From Methanobacteriaceae archaeon (lineage in GTDB: Archaea; Methanobacteriota; Methanobacteria; Methanobacteriales; Methanobacteriaceae), in NCBI GenBank assembly GCA_020854915.1, contig JAHKLT010000021.1, forward strand, positions 1-41,539: 41,539 nt of DNA, written 5' to 3'. The first letter of the stretch is position 1; every line of letters begins with the position of its first letter. Below the pieces are notes generated by a model. That model searched no databases. It was not told where the DNA came from and saw only the letters and a program-made list of their open reading frames with translations. Below, one piece after another: positions 20,754-28,447 of this stretch. Position numbers and translations under genes: made by a program.

Positions 20754-22469
20754 CTAAGCAATAACCATTAAAGTATCACCTGCTTTTACTGCATCACCAG
20801 GTTCAACGTAAATCTCTTTAACAACACCTTCAACATCAGATTGTATATCATTTTCCATTTTCATAGCTTCAATAACAGCGACTGTAGAACCTTTTCTTAC
20901 TTTATCTCCAACATTAACTTTTACTTTTATAACCATTCCTTGCATTGAAGATGAAATTCCTCCTTCAACAGGAGTGAAAGGTCCTTTATCTGTTTCTTTA
21001 ACATCTAAAAATCCAGTTGGCATGATCCTAACTTCAAATACATCTCCATCAACTTCAACATTATATTCAGTAGGAATAGCACCATCAGAATCAGACATAT
21101 CTGTTCTTGATTCAATTAATTCTTCTTCTTCAGCTTCACCTTTTAAAAATTTAGTTGCAACAGAGGGGTATAATGAATATGTTAAAATATCTTCATCTTT
21201 TTTAACTAAACCTTTTTCTTCAGCTTCTTTTTTATATTTTTCGTATTTTGGTTCGATTAAATCAGCTGGTCGAACACCAATAGGTTTTTCATTTCCAATA
21301 ATTTTTTTAACTACATTTTGATTTAGTGGTGCTGGAGGAGTTCCATAACTACCTTTCATGTATTCTTTTACCTCATTAGAAACTGTTTTATATCTTTCTC
21401 CACCTAAAACATTCATTACTGCTTGAATTCCAACAATTTGACTAGTAGGAGTTACAAGTGGAGGATATCCCATGTCTTTTCTTACACGAGGCATTTCATC
21501 TAATACATCTTGATATCTATCTAATGCATTTTGTTCTTTTAGTTGTGAAATCAAGTTAGAAAGCATACCTCCAGGAATTTGATAGATCAAAACATCTGTA
21601 TCTACTTTTTCTGTAATTGGATCAATTAATGATGAATATTTTTCTCTAATATCATCAAAATACTTTTTAATATGGTTCAAAAGTTTTAAATTTAGTTTTG
21701 TATCATATTCAGTACCTTGTAATGCTGCAACTATACTCTCAGTTGGAGGTTGTGAAGTACCCCATGCTAAAGGAGAAATAGCTGTATCTAAAATATCTAC
21801 ACCTGCTTGACATGCAGCATAATAGCTTATTGGAGTCATACCACTAGTACAATGACAGTGTAAATCTACGAGTAAATCTGTTTCTTCTTTTAATCTTGAA
21901 ACAAGTTCATAAGTAGTAGAAGGATTAATTAATCCAGCCATGTCTTTAATAGCTATGGAATCACATTCTAAAGATTCAAGTTCTTTTGCAAGATCAATAA
22001 AAGTATCTAATGAATGAGCCGGACTTACAGTGTAGCTGATTGTACCTTGAACATGGGCTCCTTGAGCTTTAGCAACTTTAATAGATTGTTCCATATTTTT
22101 AACATCATTTAAAGCATCAAAAATTCTGAAAACATCCACACCATTTTCATAAGATTTTTCAACAAATTTAGTAACAACATCATCAGAATAATGTTTGTAC
22201 CCTACTAAATTCTGCCCTCTTAAAAGCATTTGAAGAGGTGTTTGGGTAATTTTTTCCTTTAAACTTCTTAGTCTTTCCCACGGATCTTCATTTAAATACC
22301 TTATACATGTATCAAATGTAGCACCGCCCCATGCTTCTATAGAAAAAAATCCAATTTTATCTAATTCTTCAGCTATAGGTACTAAATCACGAGTTCGAAG
22401 CCTAGTAGCAAGTAACGATTGATGCCCATCCCTAAGTGCTGTTTCAGTAATTTTTGTAACTTTCATCAT
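20754..22469 (-). CDS. pycB: Pyruvate carboxylase subunit B (carboxyltransferase plus biotin carrier)
   Basis: Transfers CO2 from carboxybiotin to pyruvate giving oxaloacetate, the entry to the partial reductive TCA pathway; it partners PycA (biotin carboxylase), which is not in this window. N-terminal TIM-barrel carboxyltransferase: TALRDGHQSLLATRLRTRD, SIEAWGGATFDTCIRYL, DLHCHCTSGMTP (metal-binding HxH), IPGGMLSNL. C-terminal biotinyl domain has the lipoylation-type signature VIEAMKMENDI with the biotin lysine. I trimmed the long open frame to the ATG at 22469 (MMKVTKITE) because AGAGGTG precedes it; this gives 571 residues, the family length. The 38 codons upstream have no such support. 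Confidence 0.95.
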   Translation of the reverse strand: MMKVTKITETALRDGHQSLLATRLRTRDLVPIAEELDKIGFFSIEAWGGATFDTCIRYLNEDPWERLRSLKEKITQTPLQMLLRGQNLVGYKHYSDDVVTKFVEKSYENGVDVFRIFDALNDVKNMEQSIKVAKAQGAHVQGTISYTVSPAHSLDTFIDLAKELESLECDSIAIKDMAGLINPSTTYELVSRLKEETDLLVDLHCHCTSGMTPISYYAACQAGVDILDTAISPLAWGTSQPPTESIVAALQGTEYDTKLNLKLLNHIKKYFDDIREKYSSLIDPITEKVDTDVLIYQIPGGMLSNLISQLKEQNALDRYQDVLDEMPRVRKDMGYPPLVTPTSQIVGIQAVMNVLGGERYKTVSNEVKEYMKGSYGTPPAPLNQNVVKKIIGNEKPIGVRPADLIEPKYEKYKKEAEEKGLVKKDEDILTYSLYPSVATKFLKGEAEEEELIESRTDMSDSDGAIPTEYNVEVDGDVFEVRIMPTGFLDVKETDKGPFTPVEGGISSSMQGMVIKVKVNVGDKVRKGSTVAVIEAMKMENDIQSDVEGVVKEIYVEPGDAVKAGDTLMVIA

Positions 22470-22680
22470 TAAACACCTCTTAAATTGCCTAAATTTATGA
22501 TAATTTTTTAACGAAATTATTAATTTATTAAAAAAAGATATAAAAATTATATAATCAATACTATATCCAGTATATTCATACAATTATTTAATTTATATTA
22601 AGAAGTATTTAATCTTTACTATAAGAACATTAATCATTTAAGAAAGCAATGAATAATTAATCTAAAATATTTATTATAAT

Positions 22681-22719
22681 TCCAAAAAAAGTAGTACATT
22701 CCAAAAAAAAGTAGTGCAT
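22681..22719. repeat. Two head-to-tail copies of a 19/20-bp unit
   Basis: Unit 1 (22681-22699) is tccaaaaaaagtagtacat; unit 2 (22700-22719) differs by one extra a and a/g near its end. The repeats are flush. They sit about 210 bp upstream of the pycB start and could be a tandem regulator-binding site or a slippage product. Confidence 0.55.
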
Positions 22720-22775
22720 GAAAAAAAACACAAGATTTATATATTAAGAAATAGATATATCTAACCTGTATATGA

Positions 22776-22845
22776 CTTGAGATAAACATATAAAAATATA
22801 AAATACCTCCTATTTTGCATTACCTCAATATATGTTTATCTCAAG
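22776..22845. repeat. Perfect 17-bp inverted repeat around a 36-nt loop
   Basis: The bases cttgagataaacatata (22776-22792) are followed after 36 bp by their exact reverse complement, tatatgtttatctcaag (22829-22845). The structure lies between the stop of the GT39-like gene and the pycB promoter region, both on the minus strand. It could fold in RNA as a long hairpin (terminator or regulatory leader), or be a two-half-site operator or a vestigial mobile element. It lacks the T-run of a simple terminator right after it on either strand. Confidence 0.7.
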
Positions 22846-22892
22846 ATTAATACACTATTATTTTTATTGAATAGCTAATTTTTATTTAAAAA

Positions 22893-24548
22893 TCATTTAA
22901 CTCTTTTATATAAATATAGATCACCAATATTCTTGACTTCTATAAAATTTTCTAGATTTAAAGATTTATTAGATATATAGTATGTGATATTACTTTTATC
23001 AATGGATTGTGGATCACCTGAAGACATAGCTTCTACATGAGTTTCAAGATACCAAGAATAGGGTCTTACATTGTAAACTCCAATTGATTCATTTTCATAA
23101 TTATCATCATATTCTTTTAAATAATCGGCCATAATTTCATTATTTTTAAAGTAATCTGTATCTTCAAAAGTATTTACAAAATTAAATGAAGATATAATTA
23201 AAAATATTATCATAATTACATAAGCAATATGAAAAATTTTATCTTTTTGAAATTTAGATTGTATTAGAGATATAGAACTTATAATAAAATAGCTTACTCC
23301 AACCATAGATGGAATAATATATCTATCAACTTTTATATCATAATAAGAACAAAATATTAGGTTAAATATAATCCAAGCTAGAAATGAAATATTTAAGGTT
23401 AAATAATCAAATTCATACTTTTTAAATATAAATTCCCCATATAATAATGTTAAAAAAGCAAAAATAATAGTTATAACCGAACTAACATTATTAAAAGATA
23501 ATATTGTTATAGTCATAGCTATAAATAAAGCTAATAGATTTAATTTATCTTTTTTAATATTTGATTTTTTTAATATATTGAAATAATCATAAATAGTTAA
23601 AATAAAACCAACAATAAGAATTCCTACTAATCCATAAGCAAAAAATGTAGGTTTATTTAAAAATAGTTTTAAATCAACAAATGAAGTACTAGAGCTTGAT
23701 AAAAAGTTTAAAAAGTTTTCTATATAAAAAAGTTTATTAGGATTATATGCTGGATCATTAATAGAACCAAGAGAACCTGAAATTGCATCTGAAGATTGAA
23801 AAATGAAAGTTATTTTACTTCCCATTATTGAAACTACAGTATAAATAAATATGAATATCAAAGCAGAAATTATCAGTCCTTTTACAATATAGTGAAATTC
23901 TTCACTTTTAAAATAATTCTTTAACTTTAAATATCTATTTTCACTAAGTAAATTCATTATAAAATCTTTTTTAATTAAGTAATATAAAATTATTACAGGT
24001 AAAAATAAAATTACAGTAGGACGAATGAAAAAAGATAGAGTAAATGTTATAAAAACCCAAATAAAATATTTAGGTTTTTTATTAAGTGCCCAAATAGTAA
24101 ATAACATTGTCCAAAAATTAATACTAACTGCTGGAATATCAATTGAACCATTTGCAAGCCAAGCTAAGTTAATAGAAAATGTCATAAATAATATTGTTCC
24201 AAATAAACTTAAGATATTATTAAACTTTACTCTAAAAAGTAAAAAAAGTCCAATATTACCTAAAATAGCAAAAAGACCAGTTATTATAAAAATAGCTATT
24301 TCATCTTTAATTCCAATATAAAAAAATAATGATGTTAAAAAACAAACAACAGGAGCAAGAGAAATAGTGGAACTTGCTCTGATACTTTCACCAGTAAAAT
24401 AAAGTGCATTTAATAGATAAACAAAAACATCAGAACAAAAAATCCCATAATTAATATTAAAATTAATATAATAAGCTATTAATATAACACTAAATATTAC
24501 TAATATTGTTAAATAAAACAAGTTACTATCTTTAAAATTATATACCAT
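22893..24548 (-). CDS. Polytopic membrane protein, GT39/ArnT-like glycosyltransferase
   Basis: A 551-residue protein with about 11-13 hydrophobic spans and a C-terminal extracytoplasmic segment, the layout of GT-C glycosyltransferases that use polyprenyl-phosphate sugars. Seen: an early acidic loop GIFCSDVFVYLLNALYFTGE (candidate catalytic Asp), NGSIDIPAVSINFWTMLFTI, FFIRPTVILFLPVIILYYL, and the soluble tail with YNVRPYSWYLETHVEAMSSG. The Arg-Pro-Thr in a membrane loop is typical of the family. Likely adds a sugar to a lipid or surface protein. Starts at ATG 24548 without a good ribosome site. It stands 68 bp downstream of the DGGGP synthase gene and may be co-transcribed. Confidence 0.75.
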   Translation of the reverse strand: MVYNFKDSNLFYLTILVIFSVILIAYYINFNINYGIFCSDVFVYLLNALYFTGESIRASSTISLAPVVCFLTSLFFYIGIKDEIAIFIITGLFAILGNIGLFLLFRVKFNNILSLFGTILFMTFSINLAWLANGSIDIPAVSINFWTMLFTIWALNKKPKYFIWVFITFTLSFFIRPTVILFLPVIILYYLIKKDFIMNLLSENRYLKLKNYFKSEEFHYIVKGLIISALIFIFIYTVVSIMGSKITFIFQSSDAISGSLGSINDPAYNPNKLFYIENFLNFLSSSSTSFVDLKLFLNKPTFFAYGLVGILIVGFILTIYDYFNILKKSNIKKDKLNLLALFIAMTITILSFNNVSSVITIIFAFLTLLYGEFIFKKYEFDYLTLNISFLAWIIFNLIFCSYYDIKVDRYIIPSMVGVSYFIISSISLIQSKFQKDKIFHIAYVIMIIFLIISSFNFVNTFEDTDYFKNNEIMADYLKEYDDNYENESIGVYNVRPYSWYLETHVEAMSSGDPQSIDKSNITYYISNKSLNLENFIEVKNIGDLYLYKRVK

Positions 24549-24616
24549 TATAAATTATTAGGATTTAAGAATATATTAATTTAACCATAAGTAATTTTTA
24601 TAAAGATTATAATTCT

Positions 24617-25471
24617 TTAAAAAGAACCTATTGCAAATGCAATGAAACTTATTAACATGCCTATTTTTAAAAATTTAGATGTTTTATTACAAGAAACATT
24701 AGATTGACTTTTAAATATAATGAAAGCCCCATATAAAAATAATAAAATAGCTATAGCTATTATTAAGATATAATAAATATTAAATATTCCTAAAAAATAG
24801 ACCACAGGAGATAAGATACAGTCTAAAATAATTAAAAATATTACTCCATAAGAAGATTTTTTAAGACCAATAAGAATTGGTAAGGTTTTAATATTCTCTT
24901 TTTCATCCCCAACAATATCTTCCATATCTTTAGTTATTTCTCTCGCCATTGTCATAATAAGAGCAAATAAACCTAAAAATAAAGATATGAACATAATTTC
25001 ATTTGAATTTAGTTGAATACCAATAATATAACCTGAAAATACAAAACATAAAGCTGTTAAAAGACCTACAATAAAGTTTCCAACGAGAACCGTGCCTTTA
25101 AACTTATAAGCATATAAATATAAAATAGCTATTGAAAATAATATTATTAAAAAAGGTATTAAATCCTTAATAAAATATGTTATTAAAATTCCAATAAAAA
25201 TAGCTATAATAAATAGAATATAAGCATAATTTCTTGCATTTTTTAAAGTAATTTTACCTGAAGGAATAGGTCTATCTGGTCGATTAATTAAATCAATATT
25301 ATAATCAAAATAATCATTAATAACATTACCACCACTCATTACAAAAAATACTGCGATTAATCCTAAAATAAGAGGTATTTTATAATAATTAGCTATTATT
25401 GCCATTAAAATAACGGCAACTAATGCCATCATAACATTTCCAGGACGAATTATATTAATATAGGGATTCAT
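24617..25471 (-). CDS. Digeranylgeranylglyceryl phosphate synthase (UbiA family)
   Basis: Membrane prenyltransferase adding the second geranylgeranyl chain to geranylgeranylglyceryl phosphate, a core step of archaeal ether lipid synthesis. UbiA signatures: the first Asp-rich motif GGNVINDYFDYNIDLINRPD (about 47-66) and the second REITKDMEDIVGDEKENIKT (about 175-194), with eight to nine transmembrane helices in 284 residues. Other UbiA enzymes are possible in principle, but the start MNPYINIIRPGN and the NRPDRPIPSGKI segment match the archaeal DGGGPS group best. Start ATG 25471. Confidence 0.9.
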   Translation of the reverse strand: MNPYINIIRPGNVMMALVAVILMAIIANYYKIPLILGLIAVFFVMSGGNVINDYFDYNIDLINRPDRPIPSGKITLKNARNYAYILFIIAIFIGILITYFIKDLIPFLIILFSIAILYLYAYKFKGTVLVGNFIVGLLTALCFVFSGYIIGIQLNSNEIMFISLFLGLFALIMTMAREITKDMEDIVGDEKENIKTLPILIGLKKSSYGVIFLIILDCILSPVVYFLGIFNIYYILIIAIAILLFLYGAFIIFKSQSNVSCNKTSKFLKIGMLISFIAFAIGSF

Positions 25472-25699
25472 TTAAATCATATAGTAATTTATATTTTTAA
25501 ATATAAAAATTAATAGATGATTTCAAGTTAATATGTTTTTTGTGTATTTATTATAAAAATGCTTATTCTTCTAATTTAATATAAAAAACAACAAACAAGA
25601 CTATATCTAAAATAAATGAAATCAAAAAATAAAACAAGTTTAACTATAAACATCTTAAAAAAAGAAAATAATAAGTAAAATAATTATTTTTAATTTTAG

Positions 25700-25732
25700 A
25701 TGAACAATATTTATACATATAATATTGTTCAT
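25700..25732. promoter_or_regulatory. Perfect 12-bp palindrome, candidate operator
   Basis: The half-sites atgaacaatatt and aatattgttcat are exact reverse complements separated by 9 bp. The site lies about 50 bp before the candidate TATA box of the inositol-phosphate synthase gene and more than 220 bp from the divergent gene, so if it is an operator the rightward gene is the likelier target. Confidence 0.5.
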
Positions 25733-25783
25733 AAGAACTATCTAAATAATAATTTCTATTAAATGTAAAACACACAAACAATA

Positions 25784-25795
25784 GCTTTATAAATT
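25784..25795 (+). promoter_or_regulatory. Candidate TATA box of the inositol-phosphate synthase gene
   Basis: The bases gctttataaatt match the archaeal TTTATA consensus with a purine/A-rich stretch upstream. Transcription would start near 25815 and leave a leader of about 80 nt before the TTG start with its GGTGT ribosome site. Confidence 0.35.
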
Positions 25796-25894
25796 AATTT
25801 ATTTAAATATAGTAATTAGTATAAAATAACATTATTCTTATTCTTATTTAATTTAAGATTAAATATTTTCTAATTTATAATCGTTGGTGTAAAA

Positions 25895-26989
25895 TTGAGT
25901 AAAATTAAAATAGCTATTATTGGTATTGGAAACTGTGCAAGTTCTTTAATACAAGGAATCCATTACTACAAGGATAAAAATGAAAAAGATGCAATTGGAT
26001 TAATGCATTGGGAAATTGGTGATTATGAAGCTAAAGATATTGAAGTTGTTGCTGCATTCGATGTTGATAAGCGTAAAGTAGGAAAAACCATTGATGAAGC
26101 AATATTTGCAAAACCAAATTGTACAACAATCTTTCAAAAAGATATTCCAAAATCAGAAGTAAAAGTTCAAATGGGTCATGTTTTAGATGGTGTAGCTGAG
26201 CATATGGCTAATTATGATGAAGATTATACTTTTTCAGTTGCAGAAAAAGAACCTGTTGATGTTGTTAATGTTTTAAAAGAAAGTGGTGCTGAAATTCTTG
26301 TAAATTATTTACCTGTTGGTTCAGAAAAAGCAGCAAGATTTTATGCACAATCAGCACTTGATGCAGGAGTAGGTTTTATTAATTGTATGCCTGTATTTAT
26401 TGTTAGTGATTCCCAGTGGGCTCAAAAATTCGAAGAAAAAGGAATTCCAATAGTAGGTGATGATATTAAAGCTCAAATTGGAGCAACAATCACCCATAGA
26501 ACACTTGCAAATTTATTTGAAGATAGAGGTGTTAAATTAGACCATACTTACCAAATAAACACTGGAGGAAACACTGATTTTTTGAATATGCTTAATAGAG
26601 AAAGACTAGATTCTAAAAAAGAATCAAAAACAGAAGCTGTTCAATCTATTTTCAATGAAAGAATGGATGATAGAGATATCCATATTGGTCCAAGTGATTA
26701 TGTACCATGGCAAAATGATAATAAGTTATGTTTCTTAAGAATGGAAGGACGTACTTTTGGAGATGTACCAATGAATATTGAACTTAGATTAAGTGTTGAA
26801 GATTCACCAAACTCAGCAGGTTGTGTAATTGATGCAATACGCTGCTGTAAGCTAGCTCTTGAAAGAGGTATATCAGGACAATTAACATCCATTTCTTCAT
26901 ATGTAATGAAACATCCACCAATACAATACAATGATGAAGAAGCTTATAAAAAAGTAAATGAGTTTATAGATGGTCATTTAAAAAGATAG
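25895..26989 (+). CDS. ino1: Inositol-3-phosphate synthase
   Basis: NAD-dependent conversion of glucose 6-phosphate to 1L-myo-inositol 3-phosphate, used in Methanobacteriales for archaetidylinositol lipids. N-terminal Rossmann motif IAIIGIGNCASSLIQGIHYY; VVAAFDVDKRKVGK; EILVNYLPVGSEKAARFYA; FINCMPVFIVSDSQWAQKF; VGDDIKAQIGATITHRTLA; and the catalytic region TGGNTDFLNMLNRERLDSKK. 364 residues is the length of the compact archaeal/actinobacterial form. The start is TTG at 25895 with GGTGT eight bases before it. Its position next to DGGGP synthase (divergent) groups two ether-lipid functions. Confidence 0.95.
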   Translation: MSKIKIAIIGIGNCASSLIQGIHYYKDKNEKDAIGLMHWEIGDYEAKDIEVVAAFDVDKRKVGKTIDEAIFAKPNCTTIFQKDIPKSEVKVQMGHVLDGVAEHMANYDEDYTFSVAEKEPVDVVNVLKESGAEILVNYLPVGSEKAARFYAQSALDAGVGFINCMPVFIVSDSQWAQKFEEKGIPIVGDDIKAQIGATITHRTLANLFEDRGVKLDHTYQINTGGNTDFLNMLNRERLDSKKESKTEAVQSIFNERMDDRDIHIGPSDYVPWQNDNKLCFLRMEGRTFGDVPMNIELRLSVEDSPNSAGCVIDAIRCCKLALERGISGQLTSISSYVMKHPPIQYNDEEAYKKVNEFIDGHLKR

Positions 26990-27046
26990 AATATTTATAT
27001 TAAAAAAACAATATATTAATTATTAAAAAACTAATAAAGGGATAAG

Positions 27047-28447
27047 ATGAAAGTTGTAACATGTAAGAACTGTGGTGCTAATTATCAATTAGATGATGAC
27101 GATGATATAAGTACATTTGAATGTTCTTCATGTGCAGGAAACCTTGAATTAGTTGAAAGATACCCTTCCCCCCCTAATTCTAAAAAATCTAAATTATTTC
27201 GCCAACCTTATGATGAAAATGATTTAATTGTTAAATGTAGAGATTGTGGGTTAAAATACAGACTTAATAATGAAAAAAATATTTCAGATTATGAATGTGA
27301 TAGTTGTGGAGGACTTTTAAAATACATTGATAAATCTTTAAATGAAGAATTTGAAAAAAATAATGATAAGAAAAAAAATACCTTTAATAAAACTTCAGAA
27401 CAAATAAAAACACCATATATAAAAGAAAAACATGAAAATACCAATATAGTTAAAACAGCTAGAACAAGAATTCCATCATATATATTATCAAAATTTGAAA
27501 GAGATTTTGATATTTCTAAAGTAACTAATTATAATACTTTAAAAGATTATCTTAAGAAAAACTTTTATGAAGAAATTGAAAAAGATTATACAATATCTCG
27601 AGATATAGAGAATAGTGAAGATATAACTGAACAAGGGTTTTTTAATAGAATTTCTTCAAAAAAAGCAGAAGAAGATATAAAAACAGATAAACACGATTTA
27701 ATTCCATATCCTAATGAAAAAAATAACCAATACCATTATGTCTATTTAGTAATAGGAGCTATATGTGGAATTATAGGATTTATAGATGTTTTTACATCTA
27801 ACAGAGGTTATGGAATAATATTTCTTTTTATTGGATTAATAATAACTATTTATGGAATTTATAAAACTAAAGATTATGGTGAAACTGAAAAAAGAGGAAA
27901 AATAATTAGGGAAAGATTATTATCTCTACCAGAAGAATTCTATGTTTTATACTATGTAAAAGTTCCAGAATCTCATTCTGCTATAAACCATATAGTTATT
28001 GGCCCAACAGGAATATATTCTATTATTACTCAGAAATATTATAGTAAAGAAAGTGATATTTTAAAATCTGAAAAAGAAACTAATGAATTTATAAAATCAA
28101 CAGAAGAAAATACTAGTGATATTTCTATATCTGAAAATAAATTCCATTATAATGTGAAAAAAGATAAATTCGAACACAATAACAAAATCAAACAAAAATC
28201 ATTGAAATTAGGTGAAAATCTAATAAATTTCCTTAATGAAAATGGTTTTGAACATTTTTTTGTAGAACCTCTTGTAGGATTTGTGAATAATGATGTTGCT
28301 GTAATTAACATGCCTTTAACAGATGAAGACTTATTTTTAGATGAATTAATAAATAAAATTAAAACAAACCCTGTAACATTAGATACAGTCACTATACATA
28401 AATGTGCAGTTATTTTAAGTCAATATGCAACAGAATGTTCCTCTTAA
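27047..28447 (+). CDS. Double zinc-ribbon membrane protein with degenerate NERD-like domain
   Basis: 466 residues. Two zinc ribbons at the N-terminus: CKNCGANYQLDD...CSSC (about 6-30) and CRDCGLKYRLNN...CDSC (about 65-88). A charged low-complexity linker follows to about 225, then two membrane helices (YLVIGAICGIIGFIDVFT and YGIIFLFIGLIITIYGIY). The C-terminal part has the NERD (nuclease-related) pattern: RGKIIRERLLSLPEEFYVLY then INHIVIGPTGIYSIITQKYY. In active NERD domains the Asp of IDH and the Glu of ExK are catalytic; here they are Asn and Thr/Gln-like, so nuclease activity is doubtful. It lies 57 bp after ino1 and may be co-transcribed. Function unknown; a membrane-tethered nucleic-acid or protein sensor is one guess. 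Confidence 0.7.
   Translation: MKVVTCKNCGANYQLDDDDDISTFECSSCAGNLELVERYPSPPNSKKSKLFRQPYDENDLIVKCRDCGLKYRLNNEKNISDYECDSCGGLLKYIDKSLNEEFEKNNDKKKNTFNKTSEQIKTPYIKEKHENTNIVKTARTRIPSYILSKFERDFDISKVTNYNTLKDYLKKNFYEEIEKDYTISRDIENSEDITEQGFFNRISSKKAEEDIKTDKHDLIPYPNEKNNQYHYVYLVIGAICGIIGFIDVFTSNRGYGIIFLFIGLIITIYGIYKTKDYGETEKRGKIIRERLLSLPEEFYVLYYVKVPESHSAINHIVIGPTGIYSIITQKYYSKESDILKSEKETNEFIKSTEENTSDISISENKFHYNVKKDKFEHNNKIKQKSLKLGENLINFLNENGFEHFFVEPLVGFVNNDVAVINMPLTDEDLFLDELINKIKTNPVTLDTVTIHKCAVILSQYATECSS

Follow-up and report, generated by a model that had tools for sequence, protein, structure and literature searches.

An AT-rich perfect hairpin and T-tracts in the spacer between pycB and a membrane glycosyltransferase gene of a Methanobrevibacter-like archaeon

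The spacer between pycB and a membrane glycosyltransferase gene contains a perfect 17-bp inverted repeat and, further along the minus strand, a cluster of T-tracts. In the best reading, to which we give an even chance of being right, the repeat is a lineage-specific 3'-UTR hairpin that is followed by an archaeal U-tract terminator of the UbiA-glycosyltransferase gene pair, with pycB transcribed separately. The transcript-end region of this pair would have been placed before pycB by a gene-order inversion. If so, the locus is one more archaeal gene end and little is changed; it serves as a small warning that a perfect repeat lying ahead of one gene may instead belong to the preceding gene. The 41,539-nt stretch of DNA analyzed (the window) comes from a Methanobrevibacter-like member of the Methanobacteriaceae, and no account of this locus was found among the top-ranked literature matches.

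Position and anatomy of the inverted repeat

Both pycB and the glycosyltransferase gene are encoded on the minus strand and read leftwards, and the repeat therefore sits behind the glycosyltransferase gene and ahead of pycB. Their 423-nt spacer (22470-22892) holds both the inverted repeat and two flush units. The repeat begins 47 nt past the glycosyltransferase stop codon (22893) and lies 306 nt ahead of the pycB start codon (22469). The features of the locus are as follows.

20754-22469, minus strand: pycB, pyruvate carboxylase subunit B (NF006761, E 1.9e-264), with its ATG at 22469
22680-22698, minus strand: flush unit of 19 nt, TTCCAAAAAAAGTAGTACA, with a T7 tract at 22684-22690 (from sequence and TRF)
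22699-22718, minus strand: flush unit of 20 nt, TTCCAAAAAAAAGTAGTGCA, with a T8 tract at 22703-22710 (from sequence and TRF)
22721-22728, minus strand: T8 tract lying 47 nt beyond the 17-bp hairpin, a candidate element of an archaeal U-tract terminator
22736-22743, plus strand: TTTATATA, which may be the TATA box of a hairpin RNA on this strand
22767-22854, no strand assigned: extended hairpin with 26-nt arms (17 bp, 4 unpaired on each side, 5 bp)
22776-22792, no strand assigned: left arm of the perfect 17-bp inverted repeat, CTTGAGATAAACATATA
22793-22828, minus strand: 36-nt loop between the 17-bp arms, AAAAUAGGAGGUAUUUUAUA
22829-22845, no strand assigned: right arm, the exact reverse complement of the left arm
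22893-24548, minus strand: PMT_2-type membrane glycosyltransferase gene (PF13231, E 9.1e-13; no NCBIfam match), with the hairpin and T-tracts in its 3' flank
24617-25471, minus strand: UbiA-family prenyltransferase gene (PF01040; NF009523 above its cut-off), upstream of the glycosyltransferase gene on the same strand

The original prediction described an exact 17-bp inverted repeat with a 36-nt spacer and two flush 19/20-bp repeats, and these were recovered at 22776-22845 and 22680-22718, respectively. Its description of the surrounding DNA as otherwise featureless did not hold, as the spacer also contains three minus-strand T-tracts of 7-8 nt and a gene-order joint. The extended arms (22767-22792 and 22829-22854) are paired at 22 of 26 positions (85%), and 4 of the 17 bp of the perfect stem are G+C. 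Folded as RNA, the hairpin was far more stable than shuffled sequences on the minus strand (z -6.0) as well as the plus strand (z -8.3). It persisted in a 216-nt minus-strand context (z -2.9), where 1 of 200 shuffles folded equally well.

A 51-aa minus-strand open reading frame (22634-22789) was considered as a small protein and rejected by inspection. Its start lies within the hairpin, the AGGAGGT motif of the loop is 15 nt from the ATG and thus seemingly too distant, and its sequence consists largely of translated T-runs.

T-tracts behind the glycosyltransferase gene

The flush units differ by one A plus one A/G. On the minus strand they read as ...CACTACTTTTTTTTGGAATGTACTACTTTTTTTGGAA..., preceded by a further T8. 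By score, the tandem unit does not stand out (TRF score of 68; 5 of 99 rows in the window score at least 68, itself included), and it would most simply be a duplicated piece of a terminator.

In Methanococcus maripaludis, aCPSF1 binds the U-tracts of terminators with a minimum need of two U4 tracts, and a hairpin upstream is not a strict requirement for the majority of archaeal terminators (PMC8716108). Runs of at least four U were present on the sense strand behind the glycosyltransferase coding region (T8, T8, and T7, minus strand). In a sample of the genome, runs of at least seven T outnumbered runs of at least seven A by 42 to 10 within 100 nt past the gene end (sense strand, 112 co-directional gaps), compared with 71 to 43 over the whole of these gaps and 21 to 12 in their last 100 nt; the three runs of the present spacer are counted among the 71 and fall outside the 42. 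The corresponding numbers were 15 and 21 in convergent gaps (n = 30) and 23 and 30 in divergent gaps (n = 54), while the bias was reversed in coding DNA (82 T-runs versus 441 A-runs). This strand bias fits U-tract termination as described for M. maripaludis (PMC8716108). The pycB-glycosyltransferase gap, with three T-runs and no A-runs, ranked fifth by T-run count. However, its T-cluster lies 164-209 nt past the stop codon, whereas in the sample 42 of 71 T-runs are found no more than 100 nt behind the gene, which argues against the terminator reading.

The arrangement resembles archaeal aCPSF1 U-tract terminators in having several runs of at least four U behind a gene and no abutting hairpin. 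It differs from them in run length, with 8, 8, and 7 nt here versus the four to seven given as usual for such terminators (PMC8716108), in the location of two runs within a tandem duplicated unit, and in the long perfect hairpin 47 nt before. With bacterial intrinsic (Rho-independent) terminators it shares an inverted repeat and downstream T-runs. Unlike in those terminators, the stem is AT-rich and the loop is 36 nt long. The hairpin was rejected as a bacterial-type terminator because it is not GC-rich and stands 47 nt away from the first T-tract; a scan for bacterial-type terminators, covering loops of 3-8 nt only, found none.

Under the preferred reading, RNA polymerase would pass the glycosyltransferase stop codon, transcribe a 3'-UTR containing the perfect hairpin, and stop at the U8, U8, and U7 cluster (22728-22684), two tracts of which are carried by the tandem unit. 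Termination would follow the archaeal mode, with the nuclease aCPSF1 binding and cleaving the U-tracts, and the hairpin would be unneeded, at most protecting or spacing the 3' end. Co-transcription of the UbiA and glycosyltransferase genes is assumed here from their spacing. Transcription of pycB would be its own, from a promoter near its start codon, and the hairpin would probably have no effect on it.

Gene order, conservation, and chance expectation

INO1 is the gene immediately upstream of pycB, in the same orientation, in 47 of the 53 relatives with at least 700 nt of upstream sequence, and the pycB-glycosyltransferase spacer is thus a derived joint. Among the other six, INO1 is approximately 780-870 nt away in four, and two have no INO1 match. 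The order in one relative (G081) is pycB(-), INO1(-), UbiA(+), PMT(+), 27047-homologue(+), while that in the window is pycB(-), PMT(-), UbiA(-), INO1(+), 27047(+). This comparison indicates an inversion of the block at 22893-26989 (glycosyltransferase-UbiA-INO1), with joints at 22470-22892 and 26990-27046. The T-tracts may originally have terminated INO1 and stayed behind at pycB.

Among the 138 family genomes, the sole other genome of the window's genus is that of Methanobrevibacter sp. OttesenSCG-928-I08, one of two nearly clonal single-cell genomes from the cockroach gut (PMC10266427). Only 119 nt of sequence precede pycB on its contig, and the closest homologue of PMT is found on another contig, where it is followed by a gene that appears glycosyltransferase-like by eye. 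As this genome and the window have the INO1-27047 joint in common, the inversion looks older than their split. Had a neutral stem been present since the inversion, it should have decayed; the perfect stem is therefore either younger or maintained. Its presence in a fast-changing AT-rich spacer suggests a recent origin or selection and is not explained by the terminator reading.

An inversion driven by the repeat was also considered and rejected, as the exact arm is absent from the second joint (26990-27046). A total of 102 inverted pairs were detected over 22380-27200; of the 25 longest, one weak pair connects the two joints (22652-22678 with 26998-27024; 27 nt, 74% complementary), and it is no better than the AT-rich background.

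When the 88-nt hairpin was searched against the 138 family genomes, with up to six candidates scored per genome, matches occurred in 24 genomes (own included) and consisted of the hairpin itself and 29 pieces, none longer than 49 nt and none with an E value better than 4.9e-4; the 137 other genomes yielded no copy. A 428-nt query covering the entire spacer gave matches in 35 of 60 genomes, the own genome among them, with E values as low as 3e-8, and among the matches listed none outside the own genome spanned both arms. The longest perfect stem in the 3' flanks of glycosyltransferase homologues was 13 bp (15 of the 29 showing the true 3' flank). No Rfam 15 family reached its gathering score (best hit, 20.8 bits versus a cut-off of 76). 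Within its own genome, the arm 15-mer occurs exactly twice, as the two arms, and in one more place at one mismatch. With up to three mismatches there were 329 matches versus 261 for a reversed control, and most of these are thus background. At the same tolerance, the tandem unit was present only as its own two copies.

The 17-bp repeat is the sole perfect stem of at least 13 bp (loop of 3-60 nt) in the window. It is also the sole 17-bp stem in 425,339 bases of the genome (383,800 sampled in 20 stretches, plus the window), where the next longest, a 15-bp all-AT stem, was the only other one of at least 14 bp. A 20-Mb Markov-3 simulation gave two stems of at least 17 bp, which corresponds to 0.004 in a window and 0.17 in a 1.66-Mb genome; with only two events, these values are rough. 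A 20-Mb model of intergenic composition gave 37 stems, i.e., 0.012 for the 6,566 intergenic bases of the window. One 17-bp stem appeared in 20 simulated windows, and no stem of at least 15 bp in a simulated sample of 1.28 Mb. The stem is rare here but not extraordinary, with one per several genomes expected by chance; in spacer DNA that is 83% A+T, as are the intergenic regions of the window, a 17-bp palindrome somewhere in the genome is unremarkable. The earlier statement that a perfect 17-bp match is very unlikely by chance is accordingly borne out for the window (0.004-0.012 expected) but not for the genome (about 0.17 expected).

Alternative readings of the hairpin

These expectations bear directly on the possibility that the stem is a functionless, neutral palindrome, which arose by chance or by a recent template switch during replication that turned a quasi-palindrome of the AT-rich spacer into a perfect one. 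The genome-wide Markov-3 expectation favors such an origin, as do the lack of a copy in the other family genomes, the rearranged spacer, and the longer partial symmetry that encloses the perfect stem. Given the low expectation for the window itself and the lack of a second 17-bp stem in the sampled bases, we regard a neutral origin as possible but rather unlikely. A hairpin RNA, also raised in the original prediction, is possible: it gains from folding beyond shuffled sequences on both strands but has neither an Rfam match nor comparative support. Should such an RNA be made, this methanogen lineage, whose relatives include insect-gut forms, would have a regulatory RNA of recent origin. One version is a small gene on the plus strand, whose hairpin RNA would be antisense to the 3'-UTR of the glycosyltransferase gene. 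Its TATA box would be at 22736-22743 and its start close to 22767, where the extended repeat begins; the hairpin would form its body, and it would end at the T5 tracts 22861-22865 and 22879-22883. This layout, defined as TTTATATA ending 18-40 nt before the body and two T5 tracts within 50 nt after it, was found here and at 9 of the 15,894 intergenic 88-nt bodies that the sample provides when each strand is counted separately; these bodies overlap, and the 9 may include the hairpin site. The strong plus-strand fold also speaks for such a gene. However, the layout criteria were chosen post hoc, after the sequence had been inspected, and TTTATATA is barely commoner upstream of genes in the sense than in the antisense orientation (24 versus 20; 165 genes with clear upstream DNA). 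As no Rfam family or homologue was found either, a plus-strand RNA gene is improbable in our view. A minus-strand occurrence of TTTATATA at 22908-22915 was rejected on the same layout test. Within the loop, 20 nt (22797-22816) are complementary at 19 positions to the UbiA message (25365-25384, codons 30-36). The local score of 17 compares with maxima of 15 for the UbiA-glycosyltransferase region (300 shuffled loops) and 16 for the window (100 shuffled loops), and 1 of 300 random 36-mers of the genome reached it; found post hoc among many comparisons, the pairing is a lead only. A lineage-specific regulatory RNA of the membrane-lipid/glycan block, acting by feedback of the 3'-UTR loop on UbiA or as a plus-strand antisense RNA of about 100 nt, is very doubtful.

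The remaining two explanations offered originally, a transposon relic and regulation of pycB, fared worse. As a short piece with inverted ends in a spacer, the hairpin resembles a MITE or the relic of a transposon end, the 17-bp arms being its terminal inverted repeats. Unlike a MITE, it is a single-copy sequence, with the arm 15-mer confined to this locus apart from the one-mismatch place, and no direct repeat of 4-12 nt, as a target duplication would leave, was seen within 4-nt offsets of the 17-bp ends. Many scattered copies with target duplications had been named as the sign of a MITE, and the single copy without such a duplication makes a MITE unlikely. In addition to the missing family copy, a phage search gave no match, and exact matches in viral contigs were limited to two single arms. 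The sole plasmid match (64 nt, 80%, E 3e-4), to a plasmid of the cockroach symbiont Blattabacterium, covers the flush units (22663-22726) rather than the hairpin and is possibly AT-rich background. With these results, a mobile-element origin is highly improbable. Equally little favors a role as a pycB operator or leader responding, for example, to biotin or carbon supply, beyond the location of the repeat in the spacer upstream of that gene. The distance of 306 nt to the start codon argues against it, and the hairpin ends 221 nt upstream of a TATA-like stretch (22547-22554, picked by eye). A loop of 36 nt is also long for a single protein dimer. Comparison with relatives had been suggested, and the hairpin was not conserved: no perfect stem of at least 13 bp was present in the pycB upstream regions of 55 relatives (longest, 12 bp; 600 nt each, 119 nt only for the nearest relative; bacterial loci and the methanogen loci without a pycB start, L139, L157, L159, and L167, excluded), and across the family the hairpin was represented by itself and fragments. 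The element that does recur about 60 nt before pycB is a different short block, absent from the window. Regulation of pycB by the repeat is therefore hardly to be expected.

This block, ACATATATTATAGTTGGAT, was found upstream of pycB with up to two mismatches in 29 of the 55 relatives, including L094, mostly about 60 nt before the gene. In three of eight genomes searched (G138, G084, and G142), it occurred with 0-2 mismatches at pycB only; the other five, own included, had only matches with three mismatches. The block may be a promoter or operator element of pycB that is missing from the window. Elsewhere in the same genome, a 1.76-kb stretch of contig 67 (L233:8611-10368) contains no open reading frame of at least 100 aa and appears by eye to be a decayed transposase gene.
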